From assembly GCA_030272585.1 (NCBI GenBank), contig BSYQ01000005.1, positions 248,001-312,000 on the forward strand: 64,000 bases of DNA, given 5' to 3'. Under the pieces are notes generated by a model. The model worked only from the letters and a program-made list of their open reading frames with translations. It did no database searches and was not told the DNA's origin. The position numbers were made by a program, and so were the translations under genes. The stretch comes from Bryopsis sp. KO-2023. Lineage: Eukaryota > Chlorophyta > Ulvophyceae > Bryopsidales > Bryopsidaceae. Positions 32,214-59,498 of this stretch are shown in pieces. The first letter of the stretch is position 1; the number at the start of each line of letters is the position of its first letter.

Positions 32214-35200
32214 TCACAAGCCCAACTCCCCCCTGAGTTTCTCTTCAAAGTTTCTCAAAAGTGTGGTAATCAATAGGGGGTCGGGTTTCTTTTGGTCGCT
32301 CGTTTTTTTTTCGTTCTCGATTCTTTCTTCCAAATCGACAAGAGCATCAAGATAATCTTTCGTTTCCCATTCCCATGTTGTTTGGACATGAACTCTTTCT
32401 TTTTTGATATGCTCTTTGTGTTCTTGTGCCGTCCATTCCCGTTGGAGCTTTGATTTCTTGACATCTGTTTTTTAGGGCAAGAGGACACTTCAAGAAAAAA
32501 AAAGAACAAGCACACATGAAAAAATGCAGTACCTAATCCAAATCCCTCCCGAACCCCTTGATCTCACTCACCTTCGTGGTCAGAGTTCGTAGCAGTAGTC
32601 TGATTTCTCGCATCCAACAGTTTGTCATTCTTCTTCATCATGCTCACACACAGAAGCAGCGAAAAGATCAACTTGTGCTTCTCGAACAGCGATTGGCAAA
32701 CGTTTGCATGTGGGGAATGCTCGTTCGAGTTTTCCCCTCTTTCCTTGATATACTTTGCGCGTCGGGCTTCCCTGATCCCCCTCACAAACAGAGCAATCAA
32801 CCACCCCAGGGAATATCGACACATGGGATCCACTGAGGCCAAGTCTGACATGCAGAAGAACGACAAGCTCGCCCGGATCGACACTGGTCTGTTGAGCTCT
32901 TCCTTCTGTGCTTTCTCAGCTCCTTGGAACTTGGCTGCAATAATATTCGAAGTGATCTTGGACTGAGAGAGCATGTCGGTGGGCTGTTCCTTATCCACGA
33001 TGTTTCCTTGAGAGTTGCTGAGTACGAAAAGAATGTTTTCCTCGATGTCTCTGAGTTTTTTACTGATGCTCGGGCTGGATACCACCATTTGATTTTCCAT
33101 GTTGGCCAGATCCTGCCTCTCTTCTGCAGCTACGATGCCCAGAAGTTGTTCCTCCAAGGCTTCCGGAGTGACGAAAAAATTAAGGAAGGACACCTGATTT
33201 CACAGAGATCCACAGAGTGGGGAAACCGTATCTGAATTCTGCCAGCAAAGCTGAATGTATCTTGTGTATCGCAAAATCTGGGGGAGGATAAAGGAGAAAA
33301 CTGGCAGTTGCTTACCTTCACAGCCACTTCTGGAGGATTTTTCAGCTTCGTGGTCTTTGAAAGCTTGAAATCAAGATCGTACTGAATGATATGGTTGCCA
33401 GTTTTGATCATTTTGCTTCCCCCAGGCGATAACAATACAATCAGAGGGGTCCGGGGGGAAGACGTCAGTGGGCTTTGGAGGTGGCAATTGTAAGTGTGTC
33501 TGAAGTACACAAAGGTGATGCACCAAATGAAGAGGCAGTCAAATGTTTAAATACGAAACAAGGCATGGAAAACAAATATGGATGGGCTGCGGAACCCAAT
33601 CCCATCCACAATCAGTCCAAAACACGCACGGATGGTACACATTTTCATAAGTAAGGCTGACTTTTGGGTGTGCATGTGTGTTTTTCTTATTTAAAGTATT
33701 TTTTTTTGGAACTTTCCCCCCCATGAATATCACAAACCTTGGAGCCACTTTGTACTCCCATTCGAACGTATCCAGAGTCATGACTTGTATTTTGTCGCGG
33801 CCATACCCTCCTGAGTAGTTCATGAACTGACGCAACAGTTCGATTGACGGCTGTGCACCCTTGGCTGGCACGAAAGTCACACACTTTGTACCAACCGGGG
33901 GCCCAAAAACTCCCTTACGGCGTTTCTCCAGTCTACAATCCACTTGAAAATCTTGGGTCATGTCCCCAGACGTCCTGACGGCGATAGTTTTGAAGACTGG
34001 GCAGTGCAACTCTTTGGCGAGACCCTCCACAAGGTGCCGCATGATGTACACCGGCTTGCCTGCCCCGTTCGGTCCCACCATGAGGAGGGGCTGACTATGC
34101 TGGATAGCAAGGTACCTGAGCCATCCAAAAAAGATCGACACTTCAGAGAATGAATTACTCGAGCCAACAGGTGCCAAGAACATCGAAATATCGTTTTTTT
34201 CTACCTCGCCGAGTCGTTGGTGAGGATCATAATATCGGAAACTTGTGCTCCAGCAGAGATGTCCATGTCTGTGGGTGTATTCGTCCGCTGCCAAGTGGAC
34301 GTTTCCTTGTTGAAGACGTAGTCTTTCACCGTGGTTACCTGCGTGTCAGGCCATAGTGGGCAAGAGAATCCGACAGGCTCCCCTATCACTTCCTCATACC
34401 CTGAAACGAGCTTTCTTCCAGCAAGTTCTCTAAAAAACTTGTTGAATTTCTTTCTGCCTTGATCGTCAGTGGTGCATCCAAGTGACCGTACGAACGAAAA
34501 AAGCAACATGCTGTCTATCCACAACAGCTTCTTGTCGTTGAGGAAATTTGAACCTGAAAGAACACCAGTCAAAACTGTGTCAGAAAAAGCGGATGGACCA
34601 GGCAAGGAAAAGATGCGTCAGACAAGGTTCCTTTGTTCCAACCCTGGGTGGGGGCAAACACGGATGGCAATTTTACCGGCTGGTTTAGCTGCGTCCTCTT
34701 CCTCTGATGACTGGAACTCATCCAAAAGGGAAGCAACCGTGTTCATGACTGTGTGCAACAATCGTGTTCGTGTTCGTGCAACATTAATCTCTTCGCTTGG
34801 GGATACTTCTCTGGTCTCCTCTCTCAAAAACCTCAAACAGTATGGGAGAAGCCAGCTGAAGACCTGGCCAATTCGATCGACTGGACTCTGTCCCAAGGTC
34901 GATTGCGGCAATGTGTTCATCCACGATGTCAGCAGGAGTTTCCAGTCGAGCTGATGTGGCTCCAGGTACACGATGCCGCATCTGTATTGAATAAAAAGTG
35001 CGACTGCTTGTTGATCGGCTCAAAGCTGTGAAGCAAACTGGGCGTGAAATGCACTATTTACTGGATTGTTGCTGGATTGACTACCTGGAGACTGTGACCG
35101 ATGAAGCGATCGTCAAATCCCTGACTTCAAAACTCATTGATGTCGTTGCCGACATCTCAGAGTCAGGCAAACGAAGCTCCTTGTTATCCTTTAGAACTGT

Positions 35201-36867
35201 GTTCATGTTTTCGATCCAGAGTTTCCTGCCAGGAGAAGGGTTGGATGCCAGGTGCCTGGAAGTAACTTCCACTACCACATCCTCCCACTCCTGAGTAGCC
35301 TTCTCCGATGCTGGCAAGTTGTGCAGGGCGCACTGGTTTTTCATGGCTTGCACCAACTGGTTATTGTTCGCTCCTGGCATTTTGACTCCGGGTAAAAGAT
35401 CAGAAACGATGGCGTTGGAGAGGGGAACATCATGGCTGAGGAGCTTGCACAAGTTGACGTCTTTGATTGACCGCAGCGTCAGGACAAATTCGTCGCCCTC
35501 AACGTACTCCCTCTTTCTGTCTGCCGCTGCTTGAAGCACGGCGACCAGGGCTCGCATTCCATAGTCGTAATGATCTTGACTCGAAAGTTGCTCCGAGCAG
35601 AGCTTGTACGTGGCCACAATTTTCCGAGCGCAGTCCTTCGCCTGCAATACAGCATGGATACTTCGACTGCTGCAGCGTTCGACGAGCAGCACACAAGGAA
35701 GCAGCTCTTCCCACGAGATCATACCTTCAAATTTCCGTTGGAACAAAGAACTATCTCCGCGTTTCCCATTCCAATCATTCCAACCATGATGGGCCTGGGG
35801 AAACAAAAAAACCCATCATGACAGTCATGGAACGTGCTTTGTTTTCTTTGTGGACGTTTTGATCTTTCCATGCCAGTTCTTACCCTCCAGAATCTCCACC
35901 AAAGATGGGATGGATCGCATCCATAAGTGTCCGATAACACCGATGCCTGGATGAATTTCCAAGATACTCGTATCCACACTCCGCTCTTGATTTTCTCATG
36001 CAGAGTGGAATGTCAAGCTCATTTCGCTGATCGGGATCCGGGCACTGATTCGATGAGCAAAAAACAATTGAGCTTTGGCCCTTGCAGCAAAATTGCTTCA
36101 AATCAAAACATTCATTTCAGTGTGTACCTGCCAGTAGCTTCGCAATTGGAGTGGATTTAGCCCCACAAGAGCTGCCATCACGTCTCGAGCGCGGACGTCC
36201 ATGATCACCGGGGCGCTCAAAGTCATTCTGTTTAGCTTGCTCAAATCTCCGCGCACCAGACCCACAACGTCAGACAACTGGGACGCACACTCTTCACTGA
36301 CTTCCTTAAGAGCCCCCGCACGCCCAGATCGAATCCCATTCTCCATATCCATTGTCCGGTATATTTCAGCGACGACAAGCACAACCTGACCAGGCCATTC
36401 AAGAGCTCATTCATTGCGGGGATCTTGTGGATAGAACTCCACACCCAAGCTACAATCCTTGCGTGTCGACTAAACCACCCTGGGTTCCACCTTTTTGATC
36501 CGAGAGCAATAACACAGTGAGGGGGACAAGCATATGTTCATAACCAACTAGGCCGCTTCAAATATGGTTTAGTTATCACCTTTTGCATCGCCCTGTAGAT
36601 ATAAGTGTCTCCACCCATGGTTGGACCCACCAGGACGAGACCGTGACGACCAAGCTCAGCACCATCGAATTCCTTCACGACACCCAACAGATCCACATCT
36701 GGAGCGACGACTTCTATATTCTCAGCCAGTAGTGGGGCGTGCTCGTCGAGGTTCTGGTCCAGGTTCTGGTTCTGGTTCTGGTTTCGGTTACGTTTTCGTC
36801 GAAATATTTTGTGTGCGGCGACAGCGATCCCAATTAAAAAGGTCACTTTGGTCGCTTTCTTCATCAT
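32214..36867 (-). CDS. Chimeric gene A: membrane-anchored, re-assembled dynein heavy-chain fragments
   Basis: Minus-strand exons 36549-36867, 36128-36405, 35884-36080, 35725-35794, 35085-35641, 34677-34981, 34205-34553, 33738-34115, 33316-33499, 32572-33193, 32214-32464 close to about 1169 residues. Exon 1 encodes the anchor MMKKATKVTFLIGIAVAAHK and an AAA2-like P-loop with Lys replaced (GPTMGGDT). Next come linker (WPGQVVLVVAEIYR, VRGDLSKLNRMTL), AAA1 edge (YEYLGNSSR, CYRTLM), AAA1 end (SEQLSSQDHYDYGMRA), an AAA2 lacking its Walker A, AAA3 (GPNGAGKPVY), then FVTPEALEEQLLGIVAAEER of the post-stalk region and a coiled tail. AAA4, stalk and microtubule-binding domain are absent, and the P-loop lies before the linker, out of dynein order. 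The stronger first donor (AAG|GTGATA at 36580) would shift frame; the A|GTTGGT donor fits. It may act as a scaffold rather than a motor. Confidence 0.72.
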
Positions 36868-36884
36868 CCTTAAACAAACAAGTG

Positions 36885-37005
36885 TCTGTTGACCCAGAGA
36901 TGACCTTGGACTATCCTTCCACCTTTTATACTTGCAAGAATAATCCAAGTGCCATCTCTGGATCAAGAGCTTTGACCTTTGGATTTCTGTCAAGACCGAC
37001 AGTAA
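36885..37005 (-). promoter_or_regulatory. Promoter block of chimeric gene A
   Basis: Read on the minus strand, the order is ttgacagaaatccaaaggtc, a TATA box (agtataaaagg), then aaggatagtcc and catctctgggtc shortly before ATGATGAAGAAAG. The same elements in the same order precede gene B at about 43760-43872. Such conservation outside the coding exon points to a duplicated promoter. Confidence 0.7.
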
Positions 37006-37009
37006 CTGA

Positions 37010-38080
37010 GGAGAGAAGCTCTCGATTTCCGAGTCAAGCACTGAAATAGAAGAGTCTCGACGACCGGCCAACAAAACAGAACCAATACTACCCACGTCTA
37101 AAGCATTGTCACTCTCAGCGACGCGCGCGAATATGATTTGGTAAGATACGAAGGGCGCCCTCAACCTGCCTTCCTCCGGAATCGCCTCACAGGCTGTGAA
37201 CAGCCGCCATTGAATGAAACATTAATTGTTTGGTATTCGTTTCTTTTGTTAGCATGTGCCATCGTTTTGTGCGTTGCGTTCTCCACAGGTGTTTCTGAAG
37301 CTTTTTTTTTTCCCTATGCAGTGTAGTGTTCAAGATGGAGATGGTGGAACAATTTCCTCAGACATATCCTTTTTATGTGAACTGGTGAGAAAAGTAGATC
37401 GTTAGCAACACTTTTAAATTGGTTCTGGTCCCAACATGAGGGGCTGTAGTCTTGTGTGTCAGTATATTTGAATATTACATTCAGGTGAAAACAAGAAAAT
37501 GCAACCAATACATGGAATGTTTTTTTAAGAAGGTGAATAAAACAAGCCATGAAACTGGAGAAGACTATGAAGCTGTTTTCAGAGCCACCTCCCCAAAACA
37601 AAAAAAAATGAATAGGAGCAAAAAAAAAGCAAAAACCAAGAAAGTGGTTTGAATACTGGATGATCCCTGGTGTTGAAAAAATTCCTTTTGTGAGACCGAG
37701 GGATATGGTGCTTTTCATCACCATCGGAAATGCTTAAAAGATGCTCGGTAATCAATTTTTGAAGACTGTACTAAGTTAGTACTACTCACAAGGTGGTACA
37801 ATTTTTTCTAATAGTTGTGTACAGGTGCTTGAAGACACTGTATTTGTATAGAAACGCATATCAAGTGCTTTGGATCGGTCAGGAGCAGCATTTCCCTGTT
37901 GGAGGGATTTTATTTGCTTTTTCTGAGCCGCGATCAAAACGTCGAGTGCAACAGCTACGGAACTGGCTGTGGACTTCAATGTCCATTCAGTAAGCTCTGT
38001 GCGTTTTTTGGTCTGTTTTGAGTGCATCGTTGCGTTTGTGCCCATGCTTATTTTTGGATGACTTCCTCATGAAAATTTGA
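37010..38080. other. Unassigned stretch between gene A and the next CPSF160-like copy
   Basis: Only short frames are present, such as a Lys-rich one at 37452-37652, with no recognisable domain. I see no clear gene. Confidence 0.4.
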
Positions 38081-38089
38081 AGTATTTTT

Positions 38090-38400
38090 TGTGTCTTCAC
38101 TTCACACTGTTTGTGAAACAACCCGGGGGAGAGGTTTTCAAAAGTTTTTTAAAATTAAATTTTATTAAATTTTATTTTATTTTATTTTATTTTCCTTTTT
38201 TTTTATGTAAGGAATGTGCATCTGTGATCAGTAATTGGGCTTGCAGGAGTGCACTTCTCGATCGAGACCTGAACAGTGCCCAGTACAGTTGGCTGAACTC
38301 TGAATCCTTAATTTTGGCATTAAAATCAGGCCAGCTCGTTTCTGTCCACACGAAAACAATTGGGAAAAATGTGAATAAAGGAATGCAGGTAGAGGGCCGC
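38090..38400 (+). pseudogene. Third copy of the CPSF160-like fragment
   Basis: The segment from aacccgggggagaggt to the donor ATGCAG|GTAGAG matches 29632-29880 in the left arm and the complement of 61280-61530 in the right arm. It reads ECASVISNWACRSALLD, then LNSAQYSWLNSESLILALKS. The frame is intact here although it is broken in the left arm. It is an isolated exon-sized copy with no partner exons seen. Confidence 0.5.
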
Positions 38401-39339
38401 CCCCTCAGCTGATGCTACTGTTGCTTTTATGATTTCTTTGCCGTTTTGTCAGTCTGAAAAAATGTAAAGTGGAGCCGAAGACCTGTTAGTCGCCTTTGTT
38501 TCACTTGCTGCTCTTTTTTCCCTCCAAAACCAATTGATAAATAAGTGAACTGTCAGGGCAGCTGTCAAATGTGGAAATCCCCCGATAGCTTGTTGTGCAC
38601 TGGTGGCTGGACATCGACTCTTATTCCTCACTTCTTGGCTGGGGGTTTCTTTGATGATCTATTTCGTCCCTCTGCACTCCATTGAGGGAGCCAATATTTT
38701 TGTTCTCATCTTGATTTCAACTCGTGTTTTCAGCGATGTTGCATGTTATGTTTTTTTTTTTTTAACTTTGGTTTTTGTTTCCTGTCTTCTAAGTGTTGTG
38801 GATGTGGTTTAATGAATTGGGCCCTCGAGTAATTTGATGGTGGCTGGAGCACCCACTGATGCCGCAACATACAATATCATAAACAGAAAAGCAAAAAAAG
38901 CAACAACTCACATAGATATGCATTTTGAAGGCAATCTCGAATCCTGAATGATCCACCTTTTGCAAAACGCCTCGTTTGCTCTGATGCAATTTCCCAGGCA
39001 AACTCGCAGGCCGAACTTGTTTCGAGCACCCTCTACTTGGATGTTTTGCTTTGGATTATAATATTGATCGATTGATTGAGGGAAGGGGCTGTCAGTGCCT
39101 TGTTTGTTATGGCTCCGAGCTTTTGAATCGTCTGTCGAGGAGGGGGCTGGATGGAAATCTATGATTTGCCTCAATGAAAAACAATCTGCTGGTTTAATTC
39201 AACTGCAGCGAAATTGTTCTGCCACAGTCGCAGCAAAATTTTTCAGTTTCAACGTGAAGTTTGAAGCAAAAAGCATAGAGGAATCACATTCAGTTTTTCC
39301 ATAAGCACCTTGGAATTATTAAATGGGGCATTTTCGCAA

Positions 39340-39690
39340 ACTTACATCAGTGCAGTTTACCCTGTCTTCTTCTACTTTGGCATCAGCACCTCAGATCAAA
39401 AGATCCTGAAAAGCATGTTAGAACTCATGTCAGATTAAGAAAATTCTCAAAGAAAGTAGGGTTGGTTCGTATAAAATCCTCAAAGATTTATGAATTGAAA
39501 CAACAGTGGGATTTTAAAATGGCACCAGCGAGCTTCACTCCAGGTGTACCTCAACAGTGATATATTTACCCTGACAAGCTGCTTCGATTAAGGAAGAGCA
39601 TCGAATCCACATCCTCCATGTCGCCCCCCTTATCAAGCAGATGCTGAACTTCAGAAGTCCAGAAAAATATGCTCGATTATGAGGGGGAGC
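39340..39690 (-). pseudogene. Ankyrin-repeat-like remnants
   Basis: Two minus-strand patches resemble ankyrin helices: EVQHLLDKGGDMEDVDSM near 39590-39680 and GADAKVEEDRVNCTDV near 39340-39400, the second preceded by an in-frame stop. They lie downstream, on the same strand, of a kinase N-lobe-like piece. They are too short for a firm call. Confidence 0.3.
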
Positions 39691-39999
39691 AAAACTGAAT
39701 GACTGAATCAAGAATGAGAATCATTTTTGGCCAACATGAAGACACAATCCCAGAATGCGTTGCTGGGTACTGCTTCGCAACGACTTTTTATCATTGTGCA
39801 TGGAGAATTGCTGGTTTCTGAATGTGCATTTGTTTCTCTTTGGCACGTCAAATCTAACATTTCAAACAAACAAACAAACACCAAACATCAAACTCGGATG
39901 ATGCCCTGCATTATTGCTGCCATGACAATCAACACTCATACACCAAGTAATGGAAATGCAACTGAGGGTTGTGAAATGTTAGATCCCAATGATCAGGAT

Positions 40000-40310: not shown

Positions 40311-40724
40311 TGATTCAACACGGCTCTTTTGCAGAGGAAAACTGGACTCTAGAGGGATCGCCCCTCAGAAAGATGCGTCATCCTTCAAGTAAAGAGATGG
40401 TTCTCCTCGGCCCATGGGCGTCGACAACCAAACAGCGTTCATGACCCTTTTCTGAGGTCAATGGAGGTAACGAACAATTGGACTTGGATAAATCTGCTTT
40501 TGATGAAACAGCCCTTCTGAGACGGACCATCATCTAAAGTCGAGTTATGGGGACAGTGATAGACCCACTTCATCCAAGGTCTAAGGAATCAAGCCCTCTC
40601 TGACCTCACCAGGTAATCATCTGGATGTTGTGAGAGACAAAGATAACAAGTTGCCTCTTTGCCATGCACCAAAGATCCTGAGGTTAAACAGCCAGTTTGA
40701 AACACTTCATGACCATCTGAATCT

Positions 40725-41326: not shown

Positions 41327-41329
41327 CCC

Positions 41330-43586: not shown

Positions 43587-43600
43587 TGCATTTCCTCTGA

Positions 43601-43634
43601 AATCTCTCTCTCTCTCTCTCTCTCTCTGTCTCCC

Positions 43635-43670
<36 letters not shown>

Positions 43671-43775
43671 TTCCTTTCTCCCCACAAGCCACGTGATTGA
43701 CAGAAATGTCTCTCTCTCTCTCTCTCTCTCTCTCCCTTTCCTTTCTCCCCACAAGCCACGTGATTGACAGAAATG
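43601..43775. repeat. CT microsatellite with two copies of an E-box containing unit
   Basis: CT-repeat tracts alternate with the unit ccacaagccacgtgattgac + agaaatg, present at about 43681-43708 and 43748-43775. Each unit holds the palindromic E-box cacgtg. The second copy leads directly into the gene B promoter block. Confidence 0.8.
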
Positions 43776-43872: not shown

Positions 43873-46800
43873 ATGATGAAGAAAGCCAGGATAGTGATTG
43901 GACTTGGACTTGCTATCGCTGGCGCAACAAAACTCCACCAGATCCTTCGTAAGAGACGACAGAACGACCACGACCAAGACGAGAAGCACGTCAACAACCA
44001 AGAAAACGAGCGCGAAAAAGATGTGGATGCAGAAATCGAGGAAATCAGCTCAGCTGTGGGTTTGAGTCCAGCACAAGCCGAACCTGGACATTTTTTTTGT
44101 TCGATTCTTGTTTTGCTCTCTCAACGTCGGGCTAGAATCAACATGTGGAAAGCCGGGTTTCGACCTTGAATCACATTGCCTTTTTTTCTCGAAATCACAC
44201 CTCCCTTGATGAATCTTTTTCCCCGTGCTTTTCTTCTTTCCATCGCAGGAATTTGCCGAGGACGAGTCTGATGCCAAGATCCGAGAAGGAGCTATCCTTG
44301 CATTCGAATTGGGGAAACTGTTTGAGCCCTTTGTCATCAGCATTCTTCCCTTGGTGTCGACATGTTTTGACGATCCCGCCCTTCCTGTCCGAGAGGCCAC
44401 CGTCGACGCTGCCAGAGCAATCATGAGAAATCTGTCAGCCCAAGGTGAGGCATTCCGACGATTTCCTGCTTTATAAATGGATTTCATAAAAAAGTCAAAA
44501 CTGCTTTAATTCAGGAAAGTTGGACCTTGCTAGGGGGGTGTGCATCTGGACATTTTGAGGAAAAAAATGTATTCTTGTGAATTCGGCACCAGTTTTAGGT
44601 AGTATGAATCTAGGAGTTATTTCTTGATGCCGCGGAAAGAATGACGCTGATTGTTCCTTTTTAACATTTTCAAGGTGTGAAGCTTGTGCTGCCATCGTTG
44701 CTCAAGGGGCTGAGCGATTCGGTTTGGAGAACCAAACGGGGGGGTATCCAGCTTCTGGGTACAATGGCATGGTGTGCTCCAAAGCAGTTGTCCAGATGCT
44801 TGTCAACCATTGTCTCACATCAAAAAGTTCAAAAGGCTGCACAATTGGCACTCGATGAGGTATGCTCTAAAAATTGTTTAATAAAAAACCATCCAGAGCT
44901 GATATTCGTACACATAGATATATTTGTTTGCGAATTGGGGAGTTTGCAATCTGACAGACTGGGTGCGCCGCCAGGTTGGTGCCACGATCAGAAATCCAGA
45001 GGTGCAGGAGCTCGTCCCATCGTTGCTGAGTGCCATTGCCCAGCCAAACAAATTCACCAGGGATTGCTCGGAGAAGCTGCTGGACACCGTGTTCGTTAAC
45101 ACCATCAATGCCCCCAGTCTGGCTCAGATCATCCCCGTGGTGCACAGAGGCTTAAAGGACAGAAGCGGAGAAGTTAAAAAACGAGCTTCACGGATCGTCC
45201 AGAATCTTTGCAAGCTCGTCAATGATCCCAAGGTCTGACTGAGCATATCCTTGTCGTTTGATTGCACACCTCGTCTGCAAGCTTTCAATCCTCATTTTAA
45301 CAAATTCCTTGGTGAAAGCTCTTCATCCGCTAAGTCCCTGTGCTGTTTTTATGTAGGATATGGCACCCTACGTTACTCTGCTTGTCCCTGGGCTTCAAAA
45401 AGCAATTGTGGACCCGCTTCCAGCTGGTCCATCTGCAGATGTCAGGGCTCAAGCGTCCAAGGGTTTGGGATCGTTGATGGGCGACATGGGCAGAGATGCC
45501 CTTCAAGATGTCATGCCTTGGTTGACCGAGACAAAACTCAAGTCGAAAGGCTCCAGTGTGGAGCGGTACGGAGCCGCTCAGGTAAGGTTCACACTCTCTG
45601 CATGCCCAGCATAAGAGAATTCTACAATTGGTCCCGGATCCTGAGTTTCTTTTGACAACTTTGATGGCTGCAAAGTGTTGTTTAAGACCTGGTGATCAAT
45701 AAAAGGAGTGCTTGTGCAGGCGCTGGCCGAAGTTCTTGCTGTGTATGGAACATCCTACTTCGAAAGCATTCTCCCTCAGATCCTGGAGGATTGTCGAGCT
45801 CCGACGGCGGCCATACGCGAAGGTGACATCACCCTGTTCAGATTTTTGCCTTCTACCATGTGCGACACATTCCAAACCCATCTGGATGCTGTCCTCCCTC
45901 TCATTTTGGATGGGCTGGCTGACGAAAACGAGGGCGTTCGAGAAAAGGAGGAGGGCCTTTCGAACGACAACATTGTTCAATACCACGTGCGATCAGCTTC
46001 CCTCCACATCTGGAAGACAGTGGTGGTCAACACTCCGAAGACCCTAGGGGAGATTTTGCCTGCATTGATGGACTACATGATAGAGACATTGGCGCACAGT
46101 GGAGAGGATGGACGACTGTCCGCAGGTCGGTGCCTTGGTGAATTGGTCAGGAAAATGGGGGAGAGGCCTCTCCCTTGGGTGTTGCCCAGCATTCTGCCCA
46201 TTCTCAAGGGTGGAACGGAGTCCGAGAGTCCTGCGACAAGGCAAGGGGTTTGTTACGGTCTCTCGGAGGTTTTGGATGATCTGACGAGGTCGCAATTGAC
46301 GGATCACCTGCCCATGGTGTTGCCTGCGATACAAGCCACTCTATGTGACCAGGATCCTGAGGTAAAAAAATGTCTTTTAAAAATGCATGGGAGCAGTCTT
46401 CCGAAAGCTGCAGTTTCGGAACGGGTAGAAGTAATGGGCATTGATCACATCATATCATATTCAAGCTGAAACACATGCTGTGGAAAAGACAGTTTTAAAC
46501 CGAGAGCAACTGTGGCTGGTGGTTGATAAGGTCCGTGAGGCGGCGGCTGGAGCTTTTAATGCCCTTTTCAAGGCAGGTGCTGGTTCTGTCGTGGATACCA
46601 TCGTTCCAGCGCTTTTGGCACAGCTTCAATCAGACAGTGGAAATTCTCAGGCCTTGGAAGGTCTTCAAGTGATTCTGAGCGTAAGACCTCAAACGCTGAA
46701 CTCCATGGTTCCAAGGCTGCTGCACAAACCCATCTCAGTCACAAATCTTCAAGCCTTGTGGGCCCTGGCGAGTGCTGCAGGGGCATCCCTGCAAGCACAT

Positions 46801-49800
46801 TTGCCCACCATTCTGCCGGCTGTTTTGTCACTGGCCAGCATGGAAAGCGGGAAACCTGTGGAGGAAGCAGCAAAGGTGGATGTTTCGGAGCACACCGCGG
46901 TGCTCATCACAGCACTGGTGCCATTACTTGCGGAAGACAATGAAATTGTGGTGAAGACTTGTTGGACTGCCCTGGGGTCCGTCACTGCAACCATCCCCAA
47001 GGACACGCAGCCCTCTTTTGTGCGTTGCCTGAAAGATGCGGCGGCGAGTGCCAGGGACAAGGAGAGGAGGAAAATGACCGGGGAGGAGATTTGGGTGCAT
47101 GGGTTTTGCTTGCCTAAAGGGTTAGGTCCAGTCTTGCAAAGTGAGCTCGCTACTGAGGGTTTGGGAGAGCTCGTCGAGCTGACCAGCACCAAAATGCTGA
47201 GGCCATTCGTTGTTCAAATCACTGTTCCGCTCATCAGGATCATCGGTGATAGATTCCCCCGGCGAATCAAGCTTGCCATCCTCACAACGCTGGGGTTGCT
47301 GATCAACAAAGCGGGAGACGGACTCGAGGCATTCGTCCCTCAACTGCGGGCCACTTTCTTGAAATGTTTACAGGACCCCACTCCAAACGTCCGAGACCAG
47401 GCTGCCAAGAATCTAGGTCAATTGGCTCGCAGGAGTCCCACAGTTGATCAATTGGCAGTGGATCTGTCAGGCGACGCTGCGCGAAGTGAGCCTGCGGTTC
47501 GCAGGTCGTACTTAGCAGCTCTGAGGGGAATGTTTCAAACCAGCGGGGACAGGATCAACCCTGCAGTGTTGTCTGAGACTGGCCACGAAATCGTTGCTTT
47601 GCTGTCTTCGGGAGAGGAAGAAAGCGACATTGTTGTTGTGGACGTCAACTTGTGCAAGCTCCTCAGCCGTGATGTTCCTCTCTTCAACTCTATCGTTTCT
47701 GATCTTTTCCCCAGAATCAAAATGCCAGGAGCGGATATTAACCTGTTGGTGCAAGGCATGAAAAACCAATGCGCCCTGCACAAACTGCAACCAACGCAGT
47801 ATTTCATCATGAAGGTGGGCTTCCTCTCAGGGAATATATATTCCTTTTGTGAATGTGATGAGCGAGAAGATAAGTTTTTTCCAATTGTGTGGCTGCAGAC
47901 GGTGCGACTCCATGAGATCATTATTGGCCGCCACGGTGTCATGCTTGTCGGCCAGCCATTCTCTAGCAGGCGGCTGGCATCGGACGCTTCTCCTGACAGG
48001 AAACTCTGCGTGCTGGACGGTCCTGTGGATGCCGTCTGGATTGAAAACATGAACACTGTTTTGGACGACAACAAGGATCCTCATCAACTTGGCTGGAAAC
48101 TCCTGCTGACATCGTGGATGAACACATTGCCGCAATCGACTTTGGGACAGAGTCCAGTCGATCGAATTGGTCAGCTCTTCAGCTGGCTTCTGCCATGCAG
48201 TTTGAGGTTTTTAAGAGAGGAGACTAAAGAAGTATCCCCAAGCGAAGAGATGAATGTTGCACGTACAGCCATGAACACTATTGCTTCCCTTCTGGATGAG
48301 TTGCAGTCATCAGAGGAAGAGGACGCAGTTAAACCAGCCGGTAAAATTGCCATCCGTGTTGCCCCCACCCAACGTTGATCATAAAAAATGGAACAAAAGA
48401 GAACCTTGTCTGACGCATCTTTTACTTGCCTGGTCCAAGCGGATGGCTTTTTCTGACACAGTTTTGATTGGTGTTCTTTCCAGGTTTAAATTTGGACCAA
48501 CAAGACAAGAAGCTGTTGTGGATAGACAGCATGTTGCTTTTTTCGTTCGTGTGGTCAGTTGGAGGCACCACTGACGATCAAGGCAGAAAGAAATTCAACA
48601 AGTTTTTTCGAGAACTTTCTGAAGGAAAGCTCGTTCCAGGGTATGAAGAAGTAATAGGGCAACCCGTCGGATTTCGTTGCCCACTCATGCCTGACACGCA
48701 GGAAACCACGGTGAAAGACTACGTCTTCAACAAGGAAACGTCCACTTGGCAGCTGTGGACGGATACACCCACAGATGTGAACATCACTGCTGGAGCACAA
48801 GGTTCCATTGTGCTCATCAACGACTCGGCGAGGTAGAAAATAGCAATATTTCGATGTTCTTGGCACCTGTTGGCTTGAGTATTTCATTCTCTGAAGTGTC
48901 GATTTTTTTGTGATGGCTCAGATACCTTGCCATCCAACATAGTCAGCCCCTCCTCATGGTGGGACCGACCGGGACAGGAAAGCCGGTGACGATCATGGGT
49001 CTCGCCAAAGAGTCGCACAGCCCAGTCTTCAAAATTTTCGCCGCCAGTACATCTGGGGACATGATCCAAGGTCAAGTGGACTGGAGACTAGAGAAACGCC
49101 GAAAGGGAGTGTTCGGGCCCAGGGTTGGTACCAAGTGTGTGATCCTCATTGATGATATCAACGTGCCAGCCAAGAACGCACAGGACACAGGAATTCATTC
49201 GCAAGTCTTGGACAAAAAGGACCACATGAAGATGCCTCAAGGAGAGAACATTGTCGGCAACACCCTGGACGATCAAGAGCACGCCGACATGCTCTCTGAG
49301 GTCTTTTCAAAGCAAATGGACAAAGTGAAAGTGGAAACAGAGGTGAAGACTGAAAAGATAGAAACCAAGGTCAAGATGGAAGAAAAAGGGGCAGAAACGA
49401 AGGAGGAGATAAACGAGGATCTGAATGGAGACAAGAGCAACGACACTGGAGAGTGGTGCCGCGATTCAACTGAAACAATATGCGACAAGGTGGCGCAAGT
49501 TGTTTTTTCTCCTCAATCTTGTGATACACAAGCAACTTGAATATGTGTGTTTGCATAGCAGAGCGATGGTGAGAGTGCCGAATAACATATCACCTGTTTT
49601 CGTTTTGTATATCGGACTGCAGTTTTTGTTTTCGTTTTGCTTGTCAGGATTCGTATTTACTTTCGATTTTGTATGTCGGACTTTCTAAGTATTTGTTCTG
49701 CATGTGTTTGATTTGCAAGACTAAAAAGTGTTCTTCCCAGGGCTAAGATATTCATCATTATTATGCCTAAGGAAAATCGAGGTAGTCCCTTACGAAAGGA

Positions 49801-50014
49801 GGTTTTCTATTCGTCGTCGTCATCACCACCACCATTCCATTTCCATCGCAACGAAAATTCGGAACCTGTTGAATGGACAAATGAAGAGATGTTTGACGAA
49901 TATGTTCGATTGCTAGAGGAAATACCAGCTATTCCTTGCCTACGCAAAAGAGCATTAAAACTAAATTTCTACTACCATTTGGAGCAACGTTTGGAAGATG
50001 ATGGTTTGGTTTAA
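43873..50014 (+). CDS. Chimeric gene B: membrane anchor + GCN1 HEAT repeats + dynein AAA2/AAA3
   Basis: Exons 43873-44055, 44249-44444, 44675-44859, 44975-45232, 45357-45581, 45720-46361, 46531-47814, 47899-48340, 48484-48832, 48922-49489, 49748-50014 close at about 1532 residues; without the last splice the frame stops at 49540 (about 1460). Exon 1 encodes the anchor MMKKARIVIGLGLAIAGATK and an acidic stretch. Exons 2-7 match GCN1, the ribosome-bound activator of the eIF2α kinase GCN2 (GVKLVLPSLLKGLSDSVWRT, GRCLGELVRKMGERPLP, HGFCLPKGLGPVL, PLIRIIGDRFP), missing a block after LADENEGVRE. Inside exon 7, near 47635, the frame passes without a break into dynein (VNLCKLLSRDVPLFNSIVSD). AAA2 has lost its Walker [14 protein letters not shown] and a GPTGTGKP AAA3 loop remain, then a Lys/Glu-rich segment. 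It could attach a GCN1-like platform to a membrane; that is a guess. Confidence 0.8.
49748..50014 (+). CDS. Probable last exon of gene B with the shared ~50-residue tail
   Basis: The frame encodes a Ser/His-rich start and then EWTNEEMFDEYVRLLEEI, LKLNFYYHLEQRLEDDGLV and a stop. It resembles the ends of gene C ([17 protein letters not shown]) and gene A (WETKDYLDALVDLEERIE). Donor AAG|GTGGCG at 49489 and acceptor CTAAG|ATATTC at 49747 keep phase 0. A weaker reading is a separate 83-residue gene starting at 49763. Confidence 0.5.
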   Translation: MFIIIMPKENRGSPLRKEVFYSSSSSPPPFHFHRNENSEPVEWTNEEMFDEYVRLLEEIPAIPCLRKRALKLNFYYHLEQRLEDDGLV

Positions 50015-52122: not shown

Positions 52123-52640
52123 TTACTGCAGATCTCTCAAGGAGGGCGGTTTGTGGGGAAGAAAGACGAAACAAAATTGTTTCGCATGGTTCTCTTGCAC
52201 TTGAAATAGATCATGCATATCGTCCACGATGTTTCCTTGAGAGTTGCTGAGTATGAAAAGAATGTTTTCCTCGATGTCTCTGAGTTTTTTACTGATGCTC
52301 GGGCTGGATACCACCATTTGATTTTCCATGTTGGCCAGATCCTGCCTCTCTTCTGCAGCTACGATGCCCAGAAGTTGTTCCTCCAAGGCTTCCGGAGTGA
52401 CGAAAAAACTAAGGAAGGACACCTGATTTCACAGAGATCCACAGAGTGGGGAAACCATATCTGGATTCTGCCAGCAAAGCTGAATGTATCTTGTGTATCG
52501 CAAAATCTGGGGAGAATAAGGGAGAAAACTGGAAGTTGCTTAACAATGAGCTAGCGCACCTTTGCAGCCACTTCTGGAGGATTTTGCAGCTTCGTTGTCT
52601 TTGAAAGCTTGCACTACCTGATGTCAGACTATTTTCCATT
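52123..52640 (-). pseudogene. Dynein post-stalk fragment, second copy
   Basis: The minus strand repeats 33000-33350 of gene A almost exactly: SKTTKLQNPPEVAAKV, then SFLSFFVTPEALEEQLLGIV and RDIEENILFILSNSQGNIVD, after which the frame goes into unrelated sequence and stops. It has no neighbouring exons and no promoter block, so it is a stray fragment that sits in front of gene C on the opposite strand. Confidence 0.75.
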
Positions 52641-53029
52641 TTTTTCTTGAGGTGGCGGTGATGATACGAGAATATTCACATTTGTGTTTTTGTTTTCATG
52701 AGGGGGGCTTTTTGTGGACTGTTTCAGTGGAAAAAGTAAGAATTTCAACAGGATAGACAACCACCAAACCGATCACAACCACCTTAACTGTGGCAGAACA
52801 AGAACCCTGTTTTTTTCTCTCTCCCACACAAATCTGAGTGAAAACTAGTATGGAGAAAAACAAATCAAATCGTTCCAACATTGAAACACATACTATGCTT
52901 TAGTAAAGCAAATTTGATTGGATGTATGTGCATATCATGGTAAAGAAGAAACAGTGCACTTGATTGAAAAATGGCAAAAGAAGGCTTGCAGGAAAGTGCA
53001 ACCGCCCTGTTTCTCCTGTTCACAGTTCG

Positions 53030-53231
53030 AAGAAGCCACGTGACTGACTTGTGGCAATTTCTGTCAACACAGGTCACGTGGCTTTGGTCAAACAACACAG
53101 CTCTTTTATCGACGAGTCTGTTGCAGTTCGACACCTCTGGGTCATTGGTGCACAGCCGTGTAGCAATCAAGGAGAGAATTCTACGGTGCACGAAAGTTTA
53201 AGCTTTCGTCTTCACCGCCAAAAAATTCGAA
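53030..53231 (+). promoter_or_regulatory. Upstream region of gene C with inverted E-box pair
   Basis: Sequences aagccacgtgac and gtcacgtggctt form an inverted repeat around aatttctgtcaacacag, whose complement (tgacagaaatt) is the element seen before genes A and B. Then come tttggtcaaac, a TATA-like cttttatcg, and ctctgggtcat about 100 bp before the ATG at 53232. It is a diverged version of the A/B promoter block. Confidence 0.55.
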
Positions 53232-56200
53232 ATGGAATATACGTCCGTTTCCATCCGAGTCCGAGCGTTGCAAGCCTACCAGGCTATTGCAAACAGGAGA
53301 GCGCGGGATAAGAGCGTAATGGGGGACGTCTTCAAACGCGTTCCATTTACTCCCCTTGGAAATTCATCCAGGCTCGTGATGACCCCGCTCGCAGATCGGT
53401 GTTATCGGACACTCATGGGTGCGATCCATCCCAACCTTTGTGGAGCTTCAGAAGGGTAAGAACTGGCATGGAAAGATAAAAACGTCACAAGGAGAAAAAA
53501 AACACGTTCCAACACATTTTTTGTTCTCCCCCAGGCCCGCTGGAATGGGACAGACGGAGAATGTTGTCGAAGTCGACAGTTTGAAGAAACCTTTCAAAAA
53601 AAGTCAGGAAAATGCAGAAAAAGAATCCAAGAAATCGGCTGCTGCCATGGAAAAATTGATAGTGCAAGCTATGAAAAACCAGTGCGCCCTGTACAACTTG
53701 CCAGCATCGGAGAATTTCATTCCAAAGGTGGGCTTCCTCGCTGGGAATATGAATATCCCTTTGTGAATGGGATGAGCTTCTTACAGTTGTGTGGCTGGAT
53801 ACAGACGGTACATCTCCACGAGATAATTATTGGCAACCAAGGTGTCGTGCTTGTCGGCCAGCCGTTCTCTGGAAAGTCGAGCTTCATCAAGGTGTTGTCG
53901 AGCGATCTGACAGAATTAAGCGAGCAAGGAGTGAAGGTCGTCCGTTTCGATGACGTCCAAACACTGGCTTTGAATCCCAAGTCGGCCACCATGAGGCAAA
54001 TGTGTGGAGAAACAGACAAGGCTACCCAGGAGTGGAAGGATGGGGTAGTGGAAGTTACTTTCAGGCACCTGGCATCGGACCCTTCTCCTGGCAGGAAACT
54101 CTGCGTGCTCGACGGTCCTGTGGATGCCGTCTGGATTGAAAACATGAATACTGTTTTGGACGATAACAAGGAGCTCTGTTTGTCCAACTCTGAGATCATA
54201 CAAATGCCGGCAACGACGTCCACGATTTTTGAAGTCGGGGATTTGGTGGCTGCTTCACCGGCCACATTCTCCAGGTAGTTCAATCCAGCAACAATTCAGT
54301 AAATTGTGCATTTCACGCCCAGTTTGCTTCACAGCTTTGAGCCGATCAACAAGCAGTCGCACTTTTTATTCAATACAGATGCGGCATCGTGTACCTGGAG
54401 CTCGACTGGAGGCTCCTGCTGACATCGTGGATGAATACATTGCCGCAATCGACCTTGGGACAGAGTCCAGTCGATCGAATTGGCCAGCTTTTCAGCTGGC
54501 TTCTACCGTGCTGTTTGAGGTTTTTGAGAGAGGAGACCAAAGAAGTATCCCCAACTGAAGATATCCATGTTGCACGTACAGCCATGAACACCATTGCTTC
54601 CCTTTTGGATGAACTCCAGTCATCAGAGGAAGAGGACGCACCTAAACCAGCCGGTAAAATTGCAATCCGTGTTGCCCCCACCGAACGTTGTATACGAGCG
54701 TTGTATGACACACCTTTTCCATGCCTGGTCCATCCGCTTCTTCTGACACAGTCTCGACTGATGTTCTTTCCAGGTGTAAATTTCCCCAACGACAAGAAGC
54801 TGTTGTGGATAGACAGCATGTGCCTTTTTTCGTTCGTGTGGTCAGTTGGATGCACCACTGACGATGAAAGCAGAAAGAAATTCAACGAGTTTTTCCGAGA
54901 ACTTGCTGGAGGAAAGCTCGCTCCTGGGTATGAGGAAGTGATAGGGGAGCCCGTCGGATTCCGTTGCCCACTCATGCCTGACACGCGGGAAACCACAGTG
55001 TATGACTACGTCTTCAACAAGGAAACGTCCACTTGGCAGCTGTGGACGGATACACCCACAGATGTGGATATTATTGTGCTCATCAAGGACTCGGCGAGGT
55101 AGAAACAAGCGATATTTCGATGTTCTTGGCACCTGTTTGCTTGAGTATTTCATTCTCTGAAGTGTCGATCTTTTTTAGATGGCTCAGGTACCTTGCTATC
55201 CAGCATAGTCAGCCCCTCCTCATGGTAGGACCAACCGGGACAGGAAAGTCGGTGTACGTCGTGCGGCATCTCGTGGAGGTTCTCGCCAAAGAGTCGCACA
55301 GCCCAGTATTCATAAATTTCGCCGCCAAGACGTCTGGGAACATGGCCCAAGATCAAGTGGATTGTGGACTCGAGAAACGCTGTGAGGGAGTGTTTGGGCC
55401 CCCGGTCCGTAAAAATTGTGTGATTCTCGTTGAGGATATCAACATGTCAGCCAAGGCCGCACAGCCGTCAATCGAAGTGTTGCGTCCGTTCATGGACTAC
55501 TCAGGAGGGTATGGCCGCGACAACCTGGCTGGTGGCAACATCGAGGGATCCGAAAGTGAAAAAATGAGTAAGTGGGTGCTTTTGCCGGCCGGACAGTTGA
55601 GATTTTTCCCGATTCTTCTCTCTGGTTAACAATTTTTCAATTTGGCTTTTGGACGACACATCGAGAAGTTTGGGCTGTTTTGCCATAATTGTTGGAGCTG
55701 CAATCATGGATACTAATTAAAAGAACGATCATAAACTGGGAAACGAGCCTTGCTGGGTTTCTGAATGGTGCTAATGAAGGGAGTGGTCCCTGAGCCAATA
55801 TCCTATTTTCCTTCATTCCATTTTTTGTTTTTCTGACCAGGTGTTTGGAGCGAGATTGAAACACCACTGGAGGCCACAATCAGTGAGCAAGTCAGTGGTC
55901 AAGCTGCTGATATTCTGGGAAGGCAAGATGATGTGGACAAGCAAGTGGAGGCTTTGCAGAAACAAGTGGAGCACCTACAGAAAGAAAACGGTCAGCTGGA
56001 GTGCATGATTGATATTCTTTGGTCGGAGATGGATTCGGTTTGGAAAAGAAACGATGCCCTGCAAGAGGAAAACCAGAAGCTTAGAATTATCGTGGATAAA
56101 AAATCTGCAAAAGCTGTCAAAGTCGACAGTTTGAAGAAACCTTTCAAAAAAAGTCAGGAAAATGCAGAAAAAGAATCCAAGAAATCGGCTGCTGCCATGG

Positions 56201-59200
56201 AAAAATTGATAGTGCAAGCCATGAAAAACCGGTGCGCCCTGTACAACTTGCCAGCATCGGAGAATTTCATTCCGAAGGTGGGCTTCCTCGCTGGGAATAT
56301 GAATATCCCTTTGTGAATGGGATGAGCGAGACGATAAGTTTTTTACGATTGTGTGGCTGGATGCAGACGATACAACTCCACGAGATGATTATTGGCCACC
56401 AAGACGTCATGCTTGTCGGCCAGCCGTTCTCTGGAAAGTCGAGATTCATCAAGGTGTTGTCGGGCGCTCAGACTGAATTAAGCGAGCAAGGAGTGAAGGG
56501 CGTCCGTTTCGATGACGTCCAAACACTGGTTTTGAATCCCAAGTCGGCCACCATGGGGCAAATGTGTGGCGAAACAGACAAGGCTACTCAGGAGTGGAAG
56601 GATGGGGTATTGGCAGCTACTACTTTCAGGCAGCTCCTCTCTCCTGACAGGAAACTCTGCGTGCTCGACGATCCTGTGGATGCCGTCTGGATTGAAAACA
56701 TGAACGCTGTTTTGGACGAAAACAAGGAGCTCTGTTTGCTGACATTGTGGATGAACACATTGCCGCAATCGACTTTGGGACAGAGTCTGGTTGATCGAAC
56801 TAGCCAGCTTTTCAGCTGGCTTCTTCCATGCTGTTTGAGGTTTTTAAGAAAGGAGACCAGCGAAGTATCCCCAATCGAAGAGATTAATGTTGCACGTACA
56901 GCCATGAACACCATTGCTTCCCTTTTGGATGAACTCCAGTCATCAGAGGAAGAGGACGCACCTAAACCAGCCGGTAAAATTGCAATCCGTGTTGCCCCCA
57001 CCGAACGTTGTATACGAGCGTTGTATGACACACCTTTTCCATGCCTGGTCCATCCGCTTCTTCTGACACAGTCTCGACTGATGTTCTTTCCAGGTGTAAA
57101 TTTCCCCAACGACAAGAAGCTGTTGTGGATAGACAGAATGTTGCTTTTTTCGTTCGTGTGGTCAGTTGGATGCACCACTGACGATGAAAGCAGAAAGAAA
57201 TTCAACAAGTTCTTCCGAGAAATTTCTGGAGGAAAGCTCGTTCCAGGGTATGAAGAAGTAATAGGGCAACCCGTCGGAATCTGTTGCCCACTCACGCCTG
57301 ACACGCAGGAAACCACAGTGTATGACTACGTCTTCAACAAGGAAACGTCCACTTGGCAGCTGTGGACGGATACACCCACAGATGTGGACATCACTGCTGG
57401 AGCACAAGGTTCCGATATCATTATGCTCATCAACGACTCGGCGAGGTAGAAAAAAGCGATATTTCGATGTTCTGGCACCTGTTGGCTTGAGTATTTCATT
57501 CTCTGAAGTGTCGATTTTTTTGTGATGGTTCAGGTACCTTGCCATCCAACATAGTCAGCCCCTCCTCATCAGGGAAGCCCCACGGGCAAAGGATATCAAG
57601 GAAGAAGGGGAAAACTCGAAGGAGAATTTCACTCACTCCCCATATGCAAACGTTTGCCGATCACTGTTCGAGAAGCACAACCTGATGTTTTCGCTGCTTC
57701 TGTGTGTGAGCATGATGAAGGAGAATGACAAAATGTTGGATGCGGTGGTGGATGTGGCCACAGTCAATGAAGCCAATGGGGAGCCTGGCAAGGTTTCGGT
57801 CGTGCAAATGGGCCATCTTTCCTTAATATGCTATGGGAAAAAGTGGTCTGTGCGACGTTCTACAGACCCTCGCACAGTATACGTGCACGATTCTCGCGAC
57901 ATCGTACAAATGAGCAATCTGATCGGAGCCCAAGAAAAGCTCAAATGGATGGATGAATTTGGAAGCATTCTTGCTGATGGACTCATCGAAAATGGAAATC
58001 AGAACTGGTTGCACCAACAGCGGAAAACCCTCCAAAAAACAAAACTCTCTCTAAAATTCCAGGACGTCGTGATGGCCATGTCAAGGATCTGCCCTGTGGT
58101 AGAATCCTTAGGGAATGCTCTGCTGGGGGGGAGGAGGATTCCAGAAAGTTCTCTGGAGTTGAGTGGGTGTTTCGAGGTGTTAGAGAAAAGCATTGCCATC
58201 ACTGCCAGCCAAGGAGGGAAATCAAAGAGCGAAGTGATCAAAATCGAGCTCACCCAGGTGATCATTATTACTATTATTACGTTGGTGGATCTTTCTACCC
58301 TTCAGTGAACTTGTTTTGACGTGCGATGGGAGGTGATTTGGGGGAGGAAAGCTCAGCCGATAGACATGGCAAAACATGCACCAGATGCCCCTAACCCCAG
58401 TTATTACTTTCATGTCATTCAGGGAGCCATTGCTGATATGATGACCACTGTGCATCAACCTGAAAACCTTCCCCTGTGGATGGATGAATTTGGAAGAGTT
58501 CTTGCCGATCAAATCACCGACAACAAAAATCAGGCATGGCTCAATCGACAGAAAAACTTCGTCCAAGAAACGCAACTCTCCATCAAATGCCAGGACGTCC
58601 AAAACCCAAGGCAGCGGCCATTGATCATTGACCTGCAAGGGCAAGCCAACGCAGTCACAAATGAAAAGCCGAGCAGGAAGAATCAAGTGATCCCCATGAC
58701 CAACGCCACCATGAAACAGGAACCCACACACATCGATGATGAGCTCAGAAACTCCCAAGGCAGCATTTTAGACGACAAAAAGCTCAGCAACACGCTCTCC
58801 CAGTCCAAAACTACTGCCAGTGAAACAGCCAAGGTCCAAGCCGTCGAACAAACTGATGGGAAGCAACTCCATGAACCCCCAAATGAAATCACAACCAAGG
58901 TCGGTAGAACCCTTGAATTACGACTACAGCCGTCGCTCTCAATAAGTCCACACCTTGTGGGTATGCGAAAAATTCGTCCACCACTTGAAAAAAACGAAAA
59001 ATAGAAACAGTAAGGGCAACGTACAAAATCTGAAGAAGAAAAAACGACAGACAACGAACACCACCCATTAACAAAGAATAGAAGCCGAAAAAATTAAGAA
59101 CAAAGCCGAGGAGCCAGAAACAATTAACAAAAATTGGACTAAAGAAAGAAAAGCATAAGGCAACGAACAACACATTACGAAAAAATACAAGAGCACAGGT

Positions 59201-59498
59201 ATATCTATATTATGAGCATTTGTTCATATTTTTCCAGAGATCTGGGCTACAAAGACAATGGACACAAAAAGACCATGAAGAAAACGAGGTATGGAGGTCG
59301 CAATTACGCTCAACAAGGGAAGCCCAAGGATGTGATCAATTTGAAGACGGTTGGACGTCTAAGGAGCTAATGGAGGCATTCTTGGATATCGAAGAGATTG
59401 AACCACCGCCAGCCACATCGTTATTGAAATACGTGGTTCTTAAAGAATTTGGAATGAAAGTCGGTGAGGAATTGGAATCTCTTGGTTTTGTGGTCTGA
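53232..59498 (+). CDS. Chimeric gene C: two tandem dynein AAA2/AAA3 modules with coiled-coil linker
   Basis: Exons 53232-53455, 53535-53727, 53805-54274, 54379-54653, 54774-55098, 55188-55567, 55841-56277, 56367-56973, 57094-57445, 57534-58257, 58423-58899, 59238-59498 close at about 1574 residues. The start lies just before an AAA1 edge ([17 protein letters not shown]) whose Walker A is degraded (GPAGMGQTE). Module 1 has AAA2 with intact [36 protein letters not shown], and AAA3 with intact [10 protein letters not shown] and VILVEDIN. A coiled coil ([19 protein letters not shown]) links to module 2, again with GQPFSGKS; its AAA3 is cut right after [12 protein letters not shown] and fused to the dynein segment [17 protein letters not shown]. 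Then come a duplicated WMDEFG unit and the shared tail. Linker, stalk and microtubule-binding domain are missing. Two intact P-loops per module 1 and one in module 2 could still bind nucleotide. Confidence 0.78.
57800..58700 (+). other. Internal duplication of a WMDEFG domain inside gene C
   Basis: Exon 57534-58257 carries [20 protein letters not shown] and KLSLKFQDV. Exon 58423-58899 carries [20 protein letters not shown] and QLSIKCQDV at the same spacing. The units align over about 45 residues across an intron, so an exon was duplicated. I do not recognise the domain outside this gene. Confidence 0.7.

Follow-up and report, generated by a model that had tools for sequence, protein, structure and literature searches.

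Results

Chimeric genes in the window and in the surrounding hub

Bryopsis is a siphonous green alga, a giant-celled green seaweed. We analyzed a window of 64,000 nucleotides from contig BSYQ01000005.1 (C5) of Bryopsis sp. KO-2023, corresponding to C5:248001-312000 in a genome of 91.1 Mb and 28 contigs. Three genes in this window, A, B, and C, are chimeras of pieces from dynein heavy chain genes and, in B, from GCN1, the stalled-ribosome sensor and eIF2alpha-kinase activator. An initial annotation of the DNA had placed A on the minus strand and B and C on the plus strand, and these positions and strands are borne out. It had also described a family of three built from dynein exons alone. Comparison with the rest of the genome corrects both points: there are 11 loci, eight of them beyond the window; GCN1 HEAT repeats make up most of B; and the dynein parts come from two dynein genes. 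GCN1, the second dynein source, an N-terminal leader, and the larger hub had all been overlooked. Judged from the DNA, the chimeras behave as coding genes and not as pseudogenes. Their features are given below in window positions; C1, C13, and C17 in coordinates are other contigs, and "exon" refers to our models.

32214..36867, minus strand: gene A, spliced model of 1066 residues from the shared leader, 11 exons
36580-36867 (leader), 36128-36385, 35884-36044, 35725-35794, 35085-35641, 34677-34981, minus strand: gene A exons 1-6
34205-34553, 33738-34115, 33316-33415, 32572-33193, 32214-32326, minus strand: gene A exons 7-11
36766..36867, minus strand: gene A leader, with MMKK, a hydrophobic stretch, RRKR, and an N/Q/D-rich linker
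43873..49540, plus strand: gene B, 1460 residues, 10 exons, projected from the source genes, plus leader exon and tail
43873-44055, 44249-44444, 44675-44859, 44975-45232, 45357-45581, plus strand: gene B exons 1-5
45720-46361, 46531-47814, 47899-48340, 48484-48832, 48922-49540, plus strand: gene B exons 6-10
44092..47641, plus strand: GCN1-derived part of gene B, source C1:3363-3371 kb
47641..49174, plus strand: C13-dynein-derived part of gene B, with internal deletions, in frame
49712..50011, plus strand: open reading frame (ORF) of the W-x-x-x-E C-terminal module, downstream of B and putatively spliced to it; likewise present downstream of loci F and B'
53232..59498, plus strand: gene C, spliced model of 1600 residues, 12 exons, without the family leader
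53232-53455, 53535-53727, 53805-54274, 54379-54653, 54774-55098, 55188-55555, plus strand: gene C exons 1-6
55841-56277, 56367-56973, 57094-57445, 57534-58257, 58333-58899, 59238-59498, plus strand: gene C exons 7-12
59343..59495, plus strand: gene C C-terminal module, predicted two-helix hairpin, mean predicted local distance difference test score (pLDDT) 87.9

The frames had been described as longer than 1100 residues over 11-12 exons; their openness stands, and the counts hold in part, gene A being shorter and gene B having fewer exons. To gene A the C13 dynein contributes its linker end and pieces of AAA1-AAA3, beside which stand an AAA5 piece like that of the contig C1 dynein and the C-terminal module. 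In gene B the order is leader, GCN1 HEAT repeats, dynein AAA1 end/AAA2/AAA3, and a charged tail, and one open frame of 647 residues holds both HEAT_GCN1 (PF23271, E = 5.8e-18) and AAA_6 (8.9e-13). Gene C carries two tandem AAA2-AAA3 sets with a coiled-coil-like stretch between them, followed by AAA5-6 fragments and the C-terminal module; its last exon was split by the model search (59238-59288, 59364-59498), and the GenBank model of locus C' reads through.

Each gene has a neighbor or part that can be recorded beside it. The leader exon of gene A continues, at window 36600-36700 (minus strand), into a P-loop-like piece, GRHGLVLVGPTMGGDTYIY, that resembles AAA2 of the C13 dynein at only 33% and whose source was not found. 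Immediately upstream of the start of gene B, window 43603-43775 holds a TC microsatellite and an exact 67-base tandem duplication. Upstream of gene C lies an extra AAA5-module piece (window 52216-52582, minus strand), 290 bases of which are 99% identical to a gene A exon, and the unusual start of gene C has a relative of 74% amino acid identity at C5:222887-223024 (minus strand), about 78 kb leftward and outside the window.

Dynein and GCN1 matches define the 11 loci. They lie in a segmental-duplication hub of 160 kb (C5:280-440 kb) whose structure is partly palindromic, in the order A (-), B (+), C (+), D (+), E (+), F (-), E' (-), D' (-), C' (-), G (-), B' (+), so that A, B, and C lie inside the window and eight outside it. 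They hold 13 dynein copies, since C and C' have two dynein sets each. Comparison of C5:198-462 kb with itself gives inverted blocks at 324.9-341.5 kb and 379.9-396.5 kb (98.5% alike) and at 301.0-312.6 kb and 405.9-417.6 kb (95.5%), together with a direct block at 294.0-299.0 kb and 434.3-439.3 kb (98.1%). The architectures of the loci differ from copy to copy. Synonymous divergence (dS) between copies reaches 0.26. The near identity of E and E' suggests that gene conversion has acted across the palindrome arms. From their sources the dynein parts have diverged by a dS of about 0.3 and the GCN1 parts by about 0.11, and the copies are therefore not very young.

As to the layout of the hub, C5:301-347 kb and 377-417 kb form an imperfect palindrome around locus F, with blocks 95-98.5% alike and a left arm that begins at about window 53048. 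Genes A to C are flanked by a second long inverted repeat (window 27831-31494 and 59723-62942, pieces 88-97% alike), and a single ORF tested from each of its halves had no Pfam match.

The dynein and GCN1 parts come from three genes that persist elsewhere

The dynein and GCN1 parts can be traced to genes still present in the same genome: a dynein heavy chain on C13, a second dynein heavy chain at C1:2.82 Mb, and GCN1 at C1:3.36 Mb. The first of these lies at C13:1391-1405 kb, where nine GT-AG exons rebuild the linker end to AAA3 unbroken; beyond these, open frames cover AAA4, the region of the stalk, and the C-terminal part. From the linker end to AAA3 the chimeras are homologous to dynein heavy chain, with conserved intron positions. 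The best PDB match of the C13 dynein is chain 8glv_Mm, and DNAH7, DNAH3, DNAH12, and other 8glv chains are within the ten best; by these closest solved relatives, it is a single-headed inner-arm axonemal dynein heavy chain.

A single dynein source was considered and rejected, because the AAA5 part of gene A has 70% amino acid identity to the contig C1 dynein and only 44% to the C13 dynein. The block in question, C1:2825075-2825677, runs from AAA5 to the AAA6 border. Within the hub the AAA5 part of gene A is matched by E, E', and D', and C and D have only short pieces.

For the third source, GCN1, the analysis used nine exons from C1:3363-3371 kb, a stretch that itself holds part of the gene. 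HEAT repeats derived from it, again only part of GCN1, are present in B, B', D, and D', and in gene B they are 83-90% identical in residues to the GCN1 of the same genome; loci A, C, E, and F are without a GCN1 match. Some introns of gene B have been lost with adjoining exon sequence through in-frame deletions. As several segments are missing without residue, we considered origin from a retrocopy resembling complementary DNA; this was rejected, because the junctions are genomic deletions (one intronic, the others in or across exons) and introns are retained elsewhere.

Reading frames and splice sites are conserved in the copies

Our evidence for coding comes from intact source-gene exons projected onto the copies; the model search, which asks for open frames only, is not evidence by itself. 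Every one of the 176 splice sites that project into the alignments is AG/GT. For insertions and deletions (indels), events less than 15 bp apart were merged in exons and introns alike, cancelling pairs were dropped, and events shared by several copies were counted once. Counted in this way, 40 of 41 exon indels are a multiple of 3 in length, against 24 of 81 in introns (Fisher P = 3e-14); unmerged, the counts are 38/52 and 32/117 (P = 3e-8). Because an event fixed in all copies could predate duplication in the source, we also counted only those that vary between copies, and again nearly all exon events (32/33) keep the frame, against 22/61 in introns (P = 2e-9). The part derived from the contig C1 dynein was held outside the main count; there, 10 of 10 exon and 2 of 14 intron indels are multiples of 3, and the splice sites agree with conservation, save for one hand-set exon end that is not a splice site.

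In-frame stops are absent from 16 of the 17 copy-by-source sets, gene A having two. Neutral simulation (0.10 substitutions per site for dynein or 0.05 for GCN1, 300 runs) leads one to expect 2.0-8.3 stops per set. Openness by chance is rejected by the frame test and the stop test. It had been argued that random pseudogenes would not stay open, and with this the frame, stop, and splice-site tests agree: the reading frame has been under selection since duplication.

Constraint on residues is weak

To estimate the ratio of nonsynonymous to synonymous change (dN/dS, omega) we used pairwise maximum likelihood with an in-house GY94 script. Between copies, omega ranges from 0.46 to 1.19. At P < 0.05 it differs from 1 in four of 16 dynein pairs (A-B, C1-D, B-F, and B-C1, where C1 is a copy in locus C) and in none of four GCN1 pairs. 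With kappa fixed at 3, pooling of seven disjoint recent pairs yields an omega of 0.73 (0.60-0.90; likelihood-ratio test statistic 8.1); for two sets, each of three deeper pairs, the values are 0.81 (0.66-0.94) and 0.73 (0.60-0.85). Values of 0.32-0.41 between copy and source include the constrained source branch. The most constrained part is dynein exon 7, at 0.45 (0.30-0.67), and a search for positive selection by exon, in the nine C13-dynein exons and four pairs only, gave no value clearly above 1. The initial annotation had proposed dN/dS between the copies as a check; the call is close, the pooled value falling below 1 and 16 of the 20 single pairs being indistinguishable from it. In short, residue constraint is weak and frame constraint is strict.

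The predicted proteins have lost motor parts

Nine of the 11 loci, all except C and C', begin with a common leader: M(M/W)KK, a run of some 15 hydrophobic residues, an R/K cluster, and a linker rich in N, Q, D, and H. A search with the gene B leader gave four matches, all on C5. By its sequence pattern the leader is signal-anchor-like, and we presume its shape to resemble that of signal anchors of the mitochondrial outer membrane.

The catalytic motifs have fared poorly. In AAA1 the Walker B motif FDEF reads FDGF or SDGF in each of the four covering loci (D, E, E', and F), with G in place of E, and the remaining copies have no aligned sequence at the site. In Walker A of AAA1, GKT persists in E, E', and F, with changes in D and in copies C1 and C1'. 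Walker A of AAA2 (GxxxxGKS), a P-loop that is non-catalytic in dynein, is intact in seven of 12 covering copies (C1, C1', C2, D, E, E', and F). It is altered in C2', D', and G, and in B and B' a deletion cuts through it. In AAA3, GKS has become GKP, an exchange of S for P, in seven of nine copies (A, B, B', D', E, E', and F); C1 and C1' retain GKS. No covering copy would thus have an AAA1 in which Walker A and Walker B are both fit for hydrolysis.

The initial annotation had also noted that the stalk and microtubule-binding part is missing. Indeed, no copy matches the C13 dynein past AAA3 (AAA4, stalk) at the DNA level, matches in the hub stopping at position 7224 or earlier, and AAA4, stalk, and microtubule-binding domain are all without such a match. 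The stalk part of the contig C1 dynein likewise has no DNA match in the hub, in a comparison that did not take in AAA4 of that dynein. Chimera proteins therefore look non-motor and, to go by their motifs, largely pseudo-ATPase. Retention of AAA2/AAA3 as nucleotide-binding modules, as first proposed, is weakly supported: the AAA2 P-loop is intact in seven of 12 covering copies, and the AAA3 serine is lost in most copies and the AAA1 glutamate in all that cover it.

The C-terminal module, 50 residues with a predicted fold of two helices in a hairpin, closes genes A and C and lies downstream of B, B', and F; three ORFs holding it had no Pfam match. A small ORF at C17:155063-155230, in otherwise unrelated surroundings, has a module 35-37% identical to that of gene C. 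With this distant copy in view, the module could be one member of a broader family.

Public gene models and relatives

With gene B as query, the Bryopsis sp. KO-2023 proteins BSKO_05763 (100%) and BSKO_05777 (88%) are matched. BSKO_05763 consists of the leader, the GCN1 part, and the tail of gene B with the dynein exons skipped; in it and in BSKO_05777 the GCN1 exon is joined directly to the tail. BSKO_05765, BSKO_05772, and BSKO_05774 are likewise without C13-dynein exons, and among the five models the leader occurs in those of B and B' only. With gene A as query, no Bryopsis protein with C13-dynein exons was listed among the candidates of 586-1865 residues. Skipping of this kind would follow if the 13-copy dynein segment had been masked as a repeat before annotation. 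If the models are based on RNA, the dynein exons would be unexpressed; the frame evidence argues otherwise.

Searches for relatives covered about 8,000 candidates each, of 0.55-1.75 times the length of the query. Matches from other species resemble GCN1 or dynein, as judged by name and domains and not by a check for fusions. Provisionally, the family appears confined to Bryopsis, and it has been seen so far in one species. Among the papers listed, which did not include the Bryopsis genome paper, no title or abstract opening dealt with these genes.

Elsewhere in the window, Pfam matches mark two ordinary genes, a pyruvate kinase at 1776-2507 (plus strand) and an F5/8 type C domain ORF at 5117-5947 (minus strand), and two stretches of 300 bases (23999-24298 and 25994-26293), 1995 bases apart, are identical.

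Discussion

A probable young family of non-motor chimeras

We consider it probable, by a modest measure, that A, B, and C belong to a young protein-coding family of membrane-anchored, largely ATPase-dead scaffolds or decoys. That a newly evolved protein family lies here was the central proposal of the initial annotation, and it is upheld by the selection that has held frames and splice sites since duplication. The origin and architecture of the family, its frame selection, and its loss of motor parts can be read from the genome. Segmental duplication assembled blocks of C13 dynein exons from the linker end to AAA3, together in several loci with the block from the second dynein (AAA5 to AAA6 border) and in B, B', D, and D' with the HEAT repeats of GCN1. 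A new N-terminal leader is present in nine of the 11 loci, and the unit was amplified to its present number in the 160 kb hub, with frames kept open afterwards. For expression, anchoring, and a binding role we infer the rest: the chimeric genes would be expressed, the leader would anchor the protein in a membrane with the remainder cytosolic, and the AAA pieces and HEAT repeats would form a scaffold for binding, or a decoy to which dynein or GCN1 partners attach, and not a motor. Scaffold or decoy fits the predicted proteins better than ATPase, and weak residue constraint with a strict frame suits a binding protein that is diversifying or only loosely constrained.

Several points weigh against this proposal. 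The chimeras are known here as genomic sequence, and the five GenBank models, which we assigned by sequence to B, B', C', D, and D', omit the C13-dynein exons. Most single-pair omegas (16 of 20) cannot be told from 1 at P < 0.05, and for the GCN1 part of the pair B-D omega is 1.15 (0.73-1.89). Unmerged, the copy-variable indel contrast is weaker, if still clear (32/45 against 26/85, P = 1.5e-5), and the single exception in the merged counts is a 2-base exon deletion in copy C1' of locus C'. In two small sets, G and the GCN1 part of D', a lack of stops is no surprise, since 42 and 44 of 300 simulations also gave none. Both in-frame stops of gene A fall within the opening 84 bp of parental exon d1; a later splice acceptor bypasses them, and only with it is the model open. 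Finally, membrane anchoring is a prediction from the composition of the leader, and the scaffold or decoy role is a proposal.

The main rival of interest is that the hub is a locus of conflict or gamete competition, a fast-diversifying amplicon (sex-linked, self-recognition, selfish, or sperm-competition-like) whose dynein pieces would disturb the flagellar function of rival gametes. Amplicon and flagellar sources together suggest it: the blocks of the palindrome are 95-98.5% alike, residues change rapidly with frames open, and the first source is axonemal by its closest solved relatives. We know of no flagellar role for GCN1, which counts on the other side, as does the finding that no exon, among dynein exons only, has an omega clearly above 1. 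Male and female individuals of this Bryopsis have been collected, according to an announcement of bacterial genomes from Bryopsis cultures (PMC12509668), and the Sdic genes of Drosophila offer a precedent (PMC3395120). On balance we hold this account to be unlikely, if the most deserving of the alternatives. A bolder form of it, to which we would give no greater credence, is that a newborn membrane-anchored pseudo-dynein/GCN1 family is diversifying fast in the palindromic amplicon through genetic conflict (gamete competition, self-recognition, or drive); there would then be strict selection for an intact chain and near-free change of its residues.

Slightly less probable again is that splicing removes the dynein exons and that expression is limited to the GCN1, leader, or tail parts, in which case B and B' would yield membrane-anchored GCN1 fragments. 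This is what BSKO_05763 and BSKO_05777 depict, and the other three models also do without C13-dynein exons. Against this, it leaves the frame and splice-site conservation of the dynein exons unexplained, loci A, C, E, and F have no GCN1 match, and the same models would be expected from repeat masking.

That the cluster consists of decaying pseudogenes, recent segmental duplicates of dynein and GCN1 that are open merely through youth, we regard as improbable. Omegas indistinguishable from 1 in most single pairs, lost catalytic motifs, the two stops of gene A, the 2-base deletion in copy C1', and the omission of C13-dynein exons from five GenBank models would all be natural under it. Yet with a dS from source of about 0.3 for dynein and about 0.11 for GCN1 the copies are not very young, and the copy-variable indels (32/33 in frame in exons, 22/61 in introns) strongly oppose it, as do 16 of 17 sets free of stops where 2.0-8.3 were expected in each, the full retention of splice sites, and a pooled omega below 1. 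Mis-assembly of alleles or source genes, suggested by the near identity of E and E', is very improbable indeed, given that copy architectures differ, that dS between copies runs up to 0.26, and that C13 and C1 are the contigs on which the three sources are found.

Returning to a young family of anchored scaffolds or decoys, gene families that are open, under selection, and made from shuffled motor-protein domains are unusual. Young families let the steps in the birth of a new protein be read directly; here, with three surviving sources and 11 coexisting variants, the shared losses of motor parts can be ordered. The hub is also a natural experiment in what dynein AAA modules and GCN1 HEAT repeats are capable of after motor function is lost, and its study brings to attention exons omitted from public gene models.

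Comparison with known systems

The chimeras share with a single-headed inner-arm axonemal dynein heavy chain the exons from linker end through AAA1-AAA3 and their intron positions. They differ from it in having no DNA match to AAA4 or stalk, in their Walker losses, and in deletions, duplications, and inserts within the ring. With GCN1 they have in common the HEAT_GCN1 repeats (PF23271) found in gene B; unlike GCN1, they hold only part of that protein, fused to dynein AAA pieces and, in B, placed behind a leader.

The nearest precedent would appear to be Sdic of Drosophila melanogaster, a tandem cluster fused from the genes for dynein intermediate chain and annexin that affects sperm competition (PMC3395120). 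Both are lineage-specific tandem clusters of chimeric genes in which a dynein subunit gene has been duplicated and fused with an unrelated gene, with subsequent small deletions and with the sources intact (PMC3395120). In Sdic the coding region comes solely from the cytoplasmic dynein intermediate chain, annexin DNA helps to form the promoter, and the cluster lies between its sources (PMC3395120). In Bryopsis, by contrast, the coding part is made of heavy-chain AAA modules from two dyneins, with GCN1 repeats at some loci and a signal-anchor-like leader, and the 11 loci stand in a palindromic hub with their sources on other contigs.

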